This document shows positions 38,690 to 43,083 of a stretch of DNA of 64,000 nucleotides, one piece after another. The position numbers and the translations under genes were made by a program. The stretch lies in NCBI RefSeq assembly GCF_003674065.1, contig NZ_RDBE01000007.1, positions 1-64,000 of the forward strand. The letters run 5' to 3'. The notes beneath the pieces were generated by a model. That model made no database searches. It was not told where the DNA came from and saw only the letters and a program-made list of their open reading frames with translations. Source of the stretch: Nocardioides mangrovicus (lineage in GTDB: Bacteria > Actinomycetota > Actinomycetes > Propionibacteriales > Nocardioidaceae). Positions within the stretch are counted from its first letter, which is position 1. Every line of letters starts with the position of its first letter.

Positions 38690-39436
38690 TCACCCGGCGT
38701 TCAGCAGATGGACCGCGAGCGCGAGTCCGGCCAGCCCGACGAGGATGCGCAGCGGGCGCTCAGGCAGCACCCGGACGGCGGCCGGGCCCAGCGCACCACC
38801 GAGCAGCGCGCCGACCGCCATCGGCAGCGCGGCGCCCCAGTGCACCGGTCCGAGGACCGCGTAGCCGATCGCGGCGACGCCGTTGGCCGCGCCCGTGCCG
38901 ACGTTCTTCACCGCGTTGCTCACCGCGAGCGGCTCCACGGTGCTCAGCGAGACCACCGCCAGCAGGATCACGCCGACGCCGGCGCCGAAGTAGCCGCCGT
39001 AGACACCGACCACCGCCAGCAGCGGCAGCCACCACCACGTGGCCGGCCGCAGCTGCGAGCCCTCCCAGCGGGCCCAGCGCCGGATGGGGTCGCGCGCCAT
39101 CAGCAGCACCGAGCCGAGCGCGACCAGCCAGGGCACCACCGCCTCGAAGGCCGACGCGGGGGTGGAGAGCAGGAGCAGCGCTCCGACCGCGCCGCCGACG
39201 GCGCTCGCGGCCGCGAGCTCGACCAGGCGCCGGCGTTGCCCGTGCAGCTCGCGGCGCCCGCCCCACATCGAGCCCGCGGTGGTGGCGGTCATGGCGACGG
39301 CGTTCGTGACGTTGGCGGCCAGCGGTCCGATCCCGGTGGCCAGGAGCGCGGGATAGCTGACCAGCGACGCCAGCCCGGCGGTGGAGCCGACCAGGCCGGC
39401 CCCGACGCCGGCCAACAGCAGCCACGCCCAGGTCAT
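38690..39436 (-). CDS. TauE/SafE family membrane transporter
   Basis: The 248-residue product has seven to eight helices in two repeats, with AGVGAGLVGSTAGLASLVSYPALL at the start of the first and VYGGYFGAGVGVILLAVVSL at the start of the second. Members export or import sulfur compounds or other anions; the substrate here is unknown. The ATG overlaps the LOG stop by four bases, so the two genes are coupled. Confidence 0.88.
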   Translation of the reverse strand: MTWAWLLLAGVGAGLVGSTAGLASLVSYPALLATGIGPLAANVTNAVAMTATTAGSMWGGRRELHGQRRRLVELAAASAVGGAVGALLLLSTPASAFEAVVPWLVALGSVLLMARDPIRRWARWEGSQLRPATWWWLPLLAVVGVYGGYFGAGVGVILLAVVSLSTVEPLAVSNAVKNVGTGAANGVAAIGYAVLGPVHWGAALPMAVGALLGGALGPAAVRVLPERPLRILVGLAGLALAVHLLNAG

Positions 39437-40278
39437 GCCCCGAGGAGCGCGACGGCCTCGTCCACGTCGTCGGTCACGTGCACGATCATCCGCGACTCCC
39501 GCGCCAGGGCCTGCAGCAGGGGCGCGACCGGCAGCCGCTGCGTCCAGTGCTCGACGCCGAGCAGCACCATCGGCGCGACGTCGTCGGCCGCGGCGTAGTA
39601 GTTCTCGCAGGCGTCCTGGAACACCTCCTGCACGGTGCCGGCCGAGCCGGGGAGGAAGACGATGCCGGCGTTGCAGATGCGCAGCAGCACGTCCTCGCGC
39701 ACGGCGTTGTGGAAGTACTTCGCGATGGAGGTCGCGAAGACGTTCGGGGGCTCGTGGCCGTAGAACCAGGTCGGCACGCCGAGGTTCTCGCGGCCCTCGA
39801 CGCGCTCCACGACGGCCAACCCCGAGCGTGCCCACGCGGTGACGTCGTCGTAGCCGGGGCAGGCGGCGAGCTCGGCCAGCGCGTCGTCGAGGTGGTCGGG
39901 CACGTAGGCGCCGAGGTTCGCCGCCTCCATCGCCCCCGGCCCGCCGCCGGTGGCGACGGTGAAGGCGGCCCCCAGCGCGTGCCCGAGCCGGGCCGCCGTG
40001 GCGTAGTCGGTCGAGCCGCGGGGCACGGCGTGCGCGCCCATCACCCCGGCGATGCGGCGACCGGCGACGTAGGCCTCGAGCGCGTCGTCGATGCCGTGGT
40101 CGTGAAGCGCTGCGGCCAGCGTCCGCTCGCGGGCGCGGTCGCCCTGGTCCCAGGCGTAGACGCGGGCGTCGGGGGTGGCGGGGTAGCCACCCCCGAGTCC
40201 GGCGTACAGCTCGGCGGGGGAGTACAGCGTCGTGCGCTCGGGGTCGAACGGCAGGTCGTGTGCCGCAGCGGTCGCCAT
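39433..40278 (-). CDS. LOG family protein
   Basis: The product (281 residues from ATG 40278) has the Rossmann-type GGGPGAMEAANLGAYV block and the variant FLPGSAGTVQEVFQDACE in place of PGGxGTxxE. LOG proteins include cytokinin-activating phosphoribohydrolases acting on nucleoside monophosphates, and the same fold occurs in lysine-decarboxylase-like proteins. The variation in the second motif leaves activity uncertain. ATG 40278 has GGAG about 9 bases upstream; GTG 40305, which overlaps the RIO stop (GTGA), is the alternative. Confidence 0.82.
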   Translation of the reverse strand: MATAAAHDLPFDPERTTLYSPAELYAGLGGGYPATPDARVYAWDQGDRARERTLAAALHDHGIDDALEAYVAGRRIAGVMGAHAVPRGSTDYATAARLGHALGAAFTVATGGGPGAMEAANLGAYVPDHLDDALAELAACPGYDDVTAWARSGLAVVERVEGRENLGVPTWFYGHEPPNVFATSIAKYFHNAVREDVLLRICNAGIVFLPGSAGTVQEVFQDACENYYAAADDVAPMVLLGVEHWTQRLPVAPLLQALARESRMIVHVTDDVDEAVALLGA

Positions 40279-40301: not shown

Positions 40302-41123
40302 TCACCAGGCCGCGGCCAGGACCTCGCCGAAGAGGTCGTCCTCGCTCACCTCGAGCCCGCGCGCGGCGAACCAGGTGCAGACGTTGTGGCAGTCGCGCAT
40401 CAAGAACTCCGACGCGGCGGGGTTGGCCACCAGGTCGACCACCTGCGGCAGGTCGATCACCACGAGCCGCTCACCGGCCGCGAGGACGTTGTACGGCGAG
40501 AGGTCGCCGTGCGCGATCTGCTGCGAGGCCATCACCAGCATCGCCTCGCGCAGCTGCTCGAACCACGACGCCAGGAGCGCCGGCGTCGGACGCTGACGGG
40601 CCAGGCGGGGCGCCGGGTCGCCGGTGTCCGGGTCGAGCACGAGCTCCATGAGGATCTCGGTGCCGTCGATCTGCACCGGGTAGGGCACCGGGACGCCGAT
40701 GAGCCACAGCCGCTTGAGCGACTCCCACTCGGCGTTGGCCCACTGGCCGGCGGCCACCGCGCGTCCGTAAGCGGTTTTCTTGGCCATCGCGCGGGTGTCG
40801 CGGCTGCTGCGCACGCGGCGGCCCTCGGCGTAGGCCGACGACCGCTGGAAGTCGCGGTGGTCCTCGCCGCGGTAGCGCTTGGCGGCCATCACGGTGGCGC
40901 CGTCGGCGCCGGCCCGCTCGAGCAGGAAGACGTCGGCCTCCTTGCCGGTCTTGAGGACGCCGAGCTCCTCGTCGACGGCGGCGCGGTCGGTGACGACCCA
41001 GTCGGGCCGGGGCTCGGGACCGCGGCACAGCGGCTCGAGGTCCCAGTAGTTCGAGAGACGGACGTCGTCGTCGATGACGACCCAGTGCTGATCGAGAGGG
41101 GTGAGGGAGAACTGGTCAGGCAA
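40302..41123 (-). CDS. RIO-type serine/threonine kinase
   Basis: The product is 273 residues from TTG 41123. It has the RIO1-like lysine block VMAAKRYRG (Lys82), the catalytic loop IAHGDLSPYNVL (Asp207, Asn212) and the metal-binding VIDLPQVVD (Asp224). Archaeal and eukaryotic RIO1 act in small-subunit maturation; bacterial roles are not established. TTG 41123 has CTGGAG with 6 bases between and follows a short upstream ORF that it overlaps. TTG 41165 is an alternative but lies inside that ORF and has no ribosome site. The leader can fold into an inhibitory hairpin (41131-41199). Confidence 0.85.
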   Translation of the reverse strand: MPDQFSLTPLDQHWVVIDDDVRLSNYWDLEPLCRGPEPRPDWVVTDRAAVDEELGVLKTGKEADVFLLERAGADGATVMAAKRYRGEDHRDFQRSSAYAEGRRVRSSRDTRAMAKKTAYGRAVAAGQWANAEWESLKRLWLIGVPVPYPVQIDGTEILMELVLDPDTGDPAPRLARQRPTPALLASWFEQLREAMLVMASQQIAHGDLSPYNVLAAGERLVVIDLPQVVDLVANPAASEFLMRDCHNVCTWFAARGLEVSEDDLFGEVLAAAW

Positions 41124-41175
41124 CGAAGGCTCCAGGAGAGAAGTCGGGGTGGGCGCGCAGGCCAAAGGCAGTCAT
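41116..41175 (-). CDS. 19-codon upstream ORF in the RIO kinase leader
   Basis: ATG 41175 is preceded by the very strong site GGAGAGGAGGGG and opens the peptide MTAFGLRAHPDFSPGAFVA, ending in TGA 41118-41116. The stop lies 3 bases past the kinase TTG, so the frames overlap by 8 bases and the kinase is read in the +1 frame relative to it. The peptide has no membrane segment or known match. Its codons 12-15 form one arm of the leader hairpin. A leader peptide that controls kinase translation is the most likely role; an authentic small protein is possible. Confidence 0.6.
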   Translation of the reverse strand: MTAFGLRAHPDFSPGAFVA

Positions 41176-41199
41176 GGCGATTACCCCTCCTCTCCTGGA
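41131..41199 (-). promoter_or_regulatory. Leader hairpin masking two ribosome binding sites
   Basis: On the coding (minus) strand, TCCAGGAGAG (41199-41190) is an exact 10-base reverse complement of CTCTCCTGGA (41140-41131). The first arm contains the Shine-Dalgarno of the upstream ORF; the second includes most of the CTGGAG site of the RIO kinase. Pairing would hide both, and translation of the upstream ORF would open the second. Confidence 0.55.
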
Positions 41200-41254
41200 A
41201 CCGTGCAGACGTACGCGACGAGACTGACCCGGAGATCTGCCCCGCGCAACCGGA

Positions 41255-42223
41255 TTACTGGTGACCCGAGACCGCGTGCGGAGCGTAGCCCTCGCTCAGT
41301 CGTGACAGCTCGTCATCGGTGAGCTCGAGGTCGACGGCGGCCACGGCATCGGTGAGGTGCTCGGGCTTGGTGACGCCGACGATGGGCGAGGTGACCGCCG
41401 GCTGGGCCAGCAGCCACGCCAGCGCCACCTGGGCCGGGGCGACCTCGCGCTCGGCGGCGACCTCGAGAAGCGTCTCGACCACGCCGCGGTCCTCGTCGCG
41501 GTAGAGGCTGCGGCCGAACTCGTCGGTCTCGCTGCGCGTGGTGGCGGCGTCCCACGGGCGGGTGAGCCTGCCGCGGGCGAGCGGGCTCCACGGGATCACC
41601 CCGACGCCCTGGTCGAGGCACAGCGGGAGCATCTCCCGCTCCTCCTCGCGGTAGATCAGGTTGTAGTGGTCCTGCATCGAGACGAACCTGGTCCAGCCGT
41701 TGACCTCGGCCACGTGCTGGGCCTTGGCGAACTGCCAGGCCCACATCGAGGAGGCGCCGATGTAGCGGGCGCGGCCGGAGGTGACGACGTCGTGCAGCGC
41801 CTCCATCGTCTCCTCGATCGGCGTCTCGTCGTCCCACCGGTGGATCTGGTAGAGGTCGACGAAGTCGGTGCCGAGGCGGTCCAGGCTGGCGTCGATCTCC
41901 TGCAGGATCGCCTTGCGCGAGAGCCCGGCACCGTTGGGACCCGGTCGCATGCGGCCGTTGACCTTGGTCGCCAGCACGACGTCGTCGCGGTCGGCGTGCT
42001 TCCACAGCGCGCGGCCGGTGTACTCCTCGCTGGTACCGGCGGAGTACACGTTCGCGGTGTCGAAAAAGGTGATGCCGGCCTCGAGCGCGGCGGCGATGGT
42101 CTCCTCGGCGAAGGCCTCGTCCTTGGCCCACTCGCGGCCCAGGGAGGCGTCGCCCCAGCTCATGCAGCCCAGCGTGATCCGCGAGACCTGCAGCCCGGTG
42201 TTGCCCAGTCGTGCGTACTTCAC
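41255..42223 (-). CDS. Aldo/keto reductase
   Basis: The 322-residue (alpha/beta)8 oxidoreductase has the catalytic tetrad in FFDTANVYSAG (Asp55, Tyr60), VVLATKVNG (Lys87) and YQIHRWDDE (His128), and an NADPH-binding C-terminal part. It resembles the bacterial AKR11/YajO-like group with MSWGDASLGREW. GTG 42223 overlaps the stop of the upstream aldo/keto reductase (GTGA), so the pair is coupled. Substrate unknown. Confidence 0.92.
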   Translation of the reverse strand: MKYARLGNTGLQVSRITLGCMSWGDASLGREWAKDEAFAEETIAAALEAGITFFDTANVYSAGTSEEYTGRALWKHADRDDVVLATKVNGRMRPGPNGAGLSRKAILQEIDASLDRLGTDFVDLYQIHRWDDETPIEETMEALHDVVTSGRARYIGASSMWAWQFAKAQHVAEVNGWTRFVSMQDHYNLIYREEEREMLPLCLDQGVGVIPWSPLARGRLTRPWDAATTRSETDEFGRSLYRDEDRGVVETLLEVAAEREVAPAQVALAWLLAQPAVTSPIVGVTKPEHLTDAVAAVDLELTDDELSRLSEGYAPHAVSGHQ

Positions 42224-43083
42224 GCAGCGGCCTCCTTCTCGATGGCGGCGATCTCGTCGTCGGTCAGCTCGATGTCGGCGGCGGCCGTGTTGGCTTCGAG
42301 GTGGGCGACCTTCGAGGTGCCCGGGATCGGCAGCATCACCGGCGAGCGCTGCAGCAGCCAGGCGAGCGCGAGCTGGGACGGCGTGGCGTCGTGACGCTTC
42401 GCGGCCTCGGCCAGCACCCCGCCCAGCGAGCCGTCGGAGCCCAGCGGCGCCCACGGGATGAACGCGATGTCGTGCTGCTCGGTGTAGTCCAGCAGCGCCT
42501 CGGAGTCGCGCGCACCGATGTTGTAGCGGTTCTGCACCGAGACGATGGTGGCGCTCTGCTGGGCCTCCTCGAGCTCCTCGACGCTCACCTCGGAGAGCCC
42601 GATGTGGCGGATCTTGCCCTCGTCCTGCAGCGCCTTGAGCTCGCCGACCTGGTCGGCCAGCGGGTAGGTGTCGTCGATGCGGTGCAGCTGGAGCAGGTCG
42701 ATGCGCTCCAGGCCCAGTCGGCGCAGGCTCATCTCCACCTCCTGGCGCAGGTACGCGGGGGCGCCCACCGGCGTCCAGCTGTTCGGCCCGCCGCGGACGA
42801 GGCCCGCCTTGGTGGCCACGACGACGTCGTCGGGGTAGGGGTGGATGGCCTCCTTGATGATCTCCTCGGAGACGTAGGGGCCGTAGGAGTCGGCGGTGTC
42901 GATGAAGGTGATGCCGAGCTCGAGGGCACGCCGGACCACGCGCAGGCACTCGTCGCGGTCGGCCGGCTCGCCCCAGATCCCATCGCCGGTCAGGCGCATC
43001 GCGCCGAAGCCGAGACGGACCACGGGCAGGTCGCCGCCGAGCTGGTAGGTGCCGGAGGCCGCTGCGTTCGTTGCTGAGGTCAT
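42220..43083 (-). CDS. Aldo/keto reductase, oxidoreductase of the YdbC/AKR13-like group
   Basis: The 287-residue product shows Asp62 and Tyr67 in TFIDTADSYGPY, Lys92 in VVVATKAGL, and His134 in LQLHRIDDTYPL. It is distinct in sequence from its downstream neighbour, so the pair is not a recent duplication. ATG 43083 lies 48 bases from the divergent SIP gene. Substrate unknown. Confidence 0.92.
   Translation of the reverse strand: MTSATNAAASGTYQLGGDLPVVRLGFGAMRLTGDGIWGEPADRDECLRVVRRALELGITFIDTADSYGPYVSEEIIKEAIHPYPDDVVVATKAGLVRGGPNSWTPVGAPAYLRQEVEMSLRRLGLERIDLLQLHRIDDTYPLADQVGELKALQDEGKIRHIGLSEVSVEELEEAQQSATIVSVQNRYNIGARDSEALLDYTEQHDIAFIPWAPLGSDGSLGGVLAEAAKRHDATPSQLALAWLLQRSPVMLPIPGTSKVAHLEANTAAADIELTDDEIAAIEKEAAA

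Follow-up and report, generated by a model that had tools for sequence, protein, structure and literature searches.

A conserved leader-ORF hairpin upstream of actinomycete RIO1-like kinase genes as a candidate translational switch

The window, the whole 64,000-nucleotide stretch of Nocardioides mangrovicus DNA that was analysed, carries on its minus strand a gene for a RIO1-like kinase (40302..41123) that begins with a TTG at 41123-41121. The protein matches Pfam RIO1 (PF01163; E 3.3e-30, 105.5 bits against a cut-off of 22), and its top matches in PDB are Rio1 kinases (E about 7e-14). It also matches the NCBIfam PA4780-family RIO1-like kinase model at E 2.8e-50, yet below the model cut-off, and scores under the curated cut-off of both RIO1-like NCBIfam models. 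Judged from these matches, the gene is a real RIO1-domain kinase. We know of no settled role for RIO kinases in bacteria, and no paper on PA4780, which lends its name to the nearest NCBIfam model, was found in the open-access PMC literature. Directly 3' of the kinase and on the same strand lies a gene for a SLOG/LOG-like protein (39433-40275; PF18306, 27.2 bits, just over the cut-off). Two tandem aldo/keto-reductase-like ORFs, named by eye from their translations, occupy 41255-43083 of that strand, 5' of a leader that precedes the kinase and is set off by a short intergenic stretch with no sigma-70-like promoter in a consensus scan.

This leader comprises, in minus-strand order, a 5' hairpin arm (41202-41184), a small ORF, a 3' hairpin arm (41149-41128) and the kinase TTG at 41123. 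The 5' arm, placed by sequence, fold and an arm-swap test on relatives, holds in its inner part the Shine-Dalgarno (SD) sequence GGAGGGG of the leader ORF (41184..41190). The ORF itself (41116..41175) runs from an ATG at 41175 to a TGA at 41116, encodes MTAFGLRAHPDFSPGAFVA in 19 codons plus stop, and is recognized from its sequence and from relatives. In the predicted fold, CCCC and UUCUCUCC of the 3' arm pair with the leader SD, and UGGAGCC pairs with GGUUCCA; the same arm includes the kinase SD, TGGAG (41130..41134), and relatives have a GGAG-like site in the same place. The preliminary description had proposed an exact 10-base reverse complement between TCCAGGAGAG (41199-41190) and CTCTCCTGGA (41140-41131), a 19-codon ORF with its SD in the first arm and the kinase SD in the second, and an ORF stop overlapping the kinase start. 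All of this is present in the sequence: the leader ORF is out of frame with the kinase, and the overlap, TTGCCTGA, is 8 nt long. Inspected by eye, the helix is longer, with 13 contiguous pairs, one of them G-U (41202-41190 with 41140-41128). Folding of 41215-41090 gave -45.8 kcal/mol (z -2.55; 3 of 200 shuffles as low), with both SDs within one predicted hairpin.

A simple consensus scan of 41050-41450 returned neither a sigma-70-like promoter nor an intrinsic-terminator-like site, and there was no Rfam match at gathering score in the window or in 20 of 153 loci. Perfect 10-base inverted repeats with a spacer of 3-60 occur 28 times in the 64-kb window. The repeat at the kinase is thus unremarkable by itself and, since it is 1 of 28, relatives were compared.

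The kinase was matched in 21 of the 24 genomes of the window's genus. These genus loci, together with the best 80 of at least 567 confirmed loci in genome contigs, gave 101 loci, 90 of them distinct, from Nocardioides, Marmoricola, Gordonia, Kribbella, Nonomuraea, Streptosporangium, Actinomadura and others. Every one of the 90 has an SD-preceded small ORF 49-76 nt before the kinase start, with its stop 8-56 nt inside the kinase gene. The 8-nt overlap of the window is the extreme; the other 89 loci overlap by 23-56 nt. For the first assignment, only leaders in a single frame were accepted, apart from that of L030, kinase starts were sought up to the leader stop, ribosome-site motifs were widened to GGAA and CGAG, and the leaders of L017 and L046 were re-picked by hand. 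Reassignment with neither frame filter nor upper bound returned identical kinase starts in 90/90 loci; without the frame filter, leaders occurred in the usual frame only in 88/90, in another only in one and in both in one. At four loci (L070, L082, L087 and L098) a weak ACGAG replaces the usual GGAG before the kinase start, and these may lean more on coupling. Thinning left 76 loci, 62 in an N group, to which the window belongs, and 14 in an S group of Kribbella/Streptosporangiales; as the sequences are related, locus counts are not independent events.

The placement of the leader stop is highly regular. A leader-frame stop lies within 60 nt after the kinase start in 76/76 thinned and 90/90 distinct loci. 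Over the following seven 60-nt stretches, that frame contains a stop in 3-13% of the 76 loci per stretch. In the third frame, 27/76 loci have a stop within the first 60 nt, and in the kinase body about 11% show a leader-frame stop within 60 nt. The stop distances themselves vary widely among these related loci. Taken as a pattern in sequence, stop placement is the strongest sign that the leader ORF is translated and that the position of its end matters.

The encoded peptide is a different matter. N-group leaders begin M-x-x-T-V-x-G-L/V-P/S-A-D, and S-group leaders read MAITALRHVRISPTSLFRSTPVVFRVRTL or close variants. With 7 of the 90 loci left out because they had no anchor, pN/pS was 1.09 in the N group (42 pairs), that is, no codon-level constraint, and 0.63 in the S group (20 pairs; 0.35 over the first five codons), a weak constraint that the third frame shares at 0.63. 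Hence, we claim no conserved functional peptide. The MTAFGLRAHPDFSPGAFVA form, whose conservation the preliminary description had put forward for testing, turned out to be an outlier among relatives that share a loose M..TV.GL..D start. The kinase frame through the leader (41171-41124 of the window, minus strand) shows conservation in the N group too (pN/pS 0.57). That signal resembles coding, but in 19/76 loci a stop interrupts the kinase frame within the leader.

The 0.57 value also bears on a programmed +1 frameshift, in which the leader would hold the true start and ribosomes would shift into the kinase frame, giving the kinase a longer N-terminus. The kinase does lie in the +1 frame relative to the leader in 89/90 distinct loci, and the filter-free count of 88/90 with that frame alone agrees with such a shift. 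However, L030 has a different frame relation, as do L105, L116 and L125 (with start distances of 56, 65 and 65), the codons that precede the leader stop are of 21 kinds in 76 loci, the leader of 28 loci described below stops 34-76 nt short of the kinase, and the kinase has its own SD and start. We therefore regard frameshifting as very improbable.

RNAalifold returned no consensus structure for the whole set or for the N group (59 of 62 loci used, halves aligned separately; L020, L030 and L041 left out) because the helices slide in register; the 14 S loci alone gave a consensus of -28.7 kcal/mol with a small covariation term. As alignments yielded no consensus fold, duplex energies of each locus's own arms were compared with those of arms swapped between loci (5000 permutations, n = 76). 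The outer pairing, between the 5' arm and the kinase-SD region, was -13.23 for own and -11.13 for swapped arms, and the inner pairing, between the leader SD and the segment before the kinase SD, -13.68 and -12.12; for both, 0 of 5000 permutations were as good. Two control pairings were flat (4804/5000 and 4050/5000, n = 76). Own arms also beat swapped arms within the 62-locus N group; in the 14-locus S group co-variation was not significant (597/5000 and 1535/5000). Relatives thus share the features first noted in the window, as the preliminary description had asked to be checked: a small ORF that overlaps the kinase start (90 distinct loci) and two arms that pair (arm swaps, 76 loci). Compared in this way, the relatives turn a weak observation on a lone repeat into a strong one.

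Synonymous recoding of the ORF lowered the predicted pairing of the leader SD from a native 0.87 to 0.70 in the N group (n = 62, p 5e-11) and from 0.84 to 0.67 in the S group (n = 14, p 0.005), and left the total energy of the N group unchanged (-45.2 vs -45.1, p 0.59). The kinase SD is predicted to be paired at 0.76 (N) and 0.96 (S). In the N group this equals the value obtained with a shuffled 5' segment (0.76 vs 0.76, p 0.91), and an excess over the shuffled segment is seen in the S group only. Structure and nucleotides conserved with no clear codon-level constraint, as in the N group, are what a protein-binding site would also produce, with the kinase itself or a ribosomal protein as ligand and the small ORF incidental. 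That explanation gives no part to the tightly placed leader-frame stop, and between relatives the helices slide in register and do not keep a single fold; we consider it improbable.

A class-wide kinase search matched 69 of 393 genomes, 63 of them strongly, and 52 of the 63 strong regions were analysed, a few of which duplicate earlier loci (for example L145 and L032). These 52 comprise 22 overlapping leaders (21 found by script and L132 by eye), 28 with a second layout, chosen by hand after viewing, and two, L112 and L144, with no recognisable leader. L144 has the most distant kinase, at 41% identity. Overlaps of other sizes appear here as well: 4 nt in L116, 67 nt in L105 and 82 nt in L125. 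In the second layout the leader ORF has 16-30 codons and ends 34-76 nt before the kinase start. An element lying between the leader ORF and the kinase (element 2) is predicted to pair with the ORF end better in own than in swapped combinations (-21.6 and -19.0; 0/5000, n = 28). It is also predicted to pair with the kinase SD and start (-19.3 vs -11.9 when shuffled, in 28/28 loci), and the two predicted pairings share at least 5 bases in 28/28. The pairing of element 2 with the kinase site does not co-vary (2025/5000, n = 28), and the control pairing of ORF end with kinase site is mildly in excess (73/5000). As modelled, the second layout fits a competing-hairpin attenuator.

The association of leader and kinase was examined with a leader model built from sequence only, scoring 60 candidates per genome under strict filters. 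Exactly one strong leader match (E up to 1.7e-5) was found in 33 of 58 relatives; 23 of these matches lie just upstream of the located kinase, and the other 10 are in genomes without a located kinase. Among the 23 checkable matches, none at E up to 1.7e-5 was found apart from a known kinase. Within the genus, 20 of the 21 congeners with the kinase have a leader match (the exception is G021), as do 0 of the 3 congeners without it. A chance origin, or phylogenetic inertia, can appeal to GC-rich leaders that fold readily, to the commonness of short ORFs, to the 28 similar perfect repeats in the window and to kinship that inflates counts. It leaves unexplained the stop placement, the advantage of own over swapped arms with flat controls, and the linkage to the kinase, and is extremely unlikely.

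A tree of 128 kinase proteins requires five layout changes among three states. Within it, the Gordonia kinases (L033 and L045) nest inside the window's genus and have the same overlapping leader, which suggests that leader and kinase were transferred together. In the same tree, L083, from a record labelled Streptomyces spiroverticillatus, has its kinase and leader placed among Nocardioides.

Predicted folds of the ribosome-free leader leave the kinase site unpaired at 0.00 in the window, 0.22 in the N group and 0.06 in the S group. When a ribosome is placed on the ORF in static folds, the kinase SD of the window remains paired at every position short of covering it (unpaired at most 0.24 and 0.06 in two models), and the N group rises from 0.22 to 0.30 at most. 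The S group alone opens, from 0.06 to 0.60 at codon 12 in one model and to about 0.4 in the other; the kinase site of the second layout does not open in such folds. We propose that, with no ribosome on the leader, both sites would be largely closed and little kinase would be made. A ribosome starting on the leader ORF would unwind the hairpin through the kinase SD and start, would stop just past the kinase start (23-56 nt in relatives, 8 nt in the window) and would thereby keep the kinase site open for a new ribosome, a form of unfolding coupling; in the window, the terminating ribosome might instead restart at the kinase. Slow or stalled ribosomes early in the leader could hold the hairpin open longer, as has been proposed for toiL-topAI, and in other actinomycetes a non-overlapping ORF with two competing hairpins would do the same task. 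Coupling through the leader, as suggested in the preliminary description, stands in kind, in that the overlap fits coupling by RNA unfolding of the MS2 coat-lysis type.

The overlap seen in 90/90 distinct loci could also act with the opposite sign. Leader ribosomes crossing the kinase SD and start would then block initiation and lower kinase output, which would rise when the leader is not translated or when ribosomes stall before the kinase site. The pairing of the second layout has that sign: element 1 would be covered by a ribosome that has reached the ORF end, and element 2 would then be free to pair with the kinase site. In the overlapping layout, however, the kinase site is predicted to be closed without a ribosome, so loss of leader translation should not open it, and blocking does not need a stop just inside the kinase gene. 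On this evidence we consider repression by overlap rather unlikely.

The component claims of the coupling mechanism differ in strength. The leader is almost certainly conserved and selected, as judged from its recurrence across loci, and its ORF is very probably translated, as the stop placement indicates. It probably controls kinase translation through SD masking. That leader-ORF ribosomes raise kinase output in the overlapping layout is a proposition we hold with even confidence, and stalling as the signal is a tentative idea. On balance, we favour the reading that the window carries one copy of a conserved cis-acting leader-ORF translational switch on actinomycete RIO1-like kinases. A broader and speculative extension, to which we give little credence as a joint claim, is that a dedicated ribosome-state sensor governs actinomycete RIO kinases, has been rebuilt more than once (giving both layouts) and moves with the kinase between lineages, such that poorly starting, slowed or stalled leader ribosomes would change the hairpin and hence kinase synthesis. 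If true, bacterial RIO kinases would thereby be linked to the production or repair of ribosomes, as are their relatives in eukaryotes and archaea. If the leader reads ribosome traffic, it would provide an initial way into the timing and purpose of kinase synthesis, and a connection to ribosome status that can be tested. The occurrence of two layouts on one gene family is a natural experiment on the evolutionary rebuilding of leader-ORF switches.

The kind of device is known, and no description of a leader of RIO kinases was found in the open-access PMC literature; the RIO-kinase leader family appears to be undescribed in open-access papers. The regulated product shares the RIO1 domain with the PA4780-family and Rio1 kinases, for neither of which did we find such a leader described in open-access papers. 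The ermC attenuator has four pairing elements. The second layout resembles erm-type attenuators in that the ORF end and the downstream ribosome site are predicted alternative partners of one element, and differs from ermC in having three elements and no known stalling peptide or drug.

A parallel to the overlapping leader is toiL-topAI of E. coli, for which opening of the topAI site by ribosomes that stall in toiL has been proposed (PMC12121999). Both systems have a short upstream ORF in a hairpin that includes the next gene's ribosome site, and in both, ribosomes on the ORF are proposed to decide whether that site opens (PMC12121999). Gene, peptide and bacteria are different, the SD of the RIO leader is predicted to be masked too, the RIO leader ORF of the overlapping layout extends into the regulated gene, and a response to stalling or antibiotics is hypothetical here. 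In MS2 coat-lysis, a ribosome terminating inside the downstream gene, at a spacing of -50 nt, can hold the site unfolded and uncovered (PMC12548453). In both cases the upstream frame enters the downstream gene before it stops (at -50 nt in MS2 and 8-56 nt in the RIO loci), whereas the RIO system has a short leader in place of a full gene, is bacterial and is predicted from sequence. PMC12548453 also lists a -8 spacing as enriched among overlapping gene pairs, and the window's TTGCCTGA, being a -8 spacing, therefore matches that enriched class. By analogy, the overlapping layout fits an unfolding coupling of the MS2 type, perhaps with stalling of the toiL type on top.
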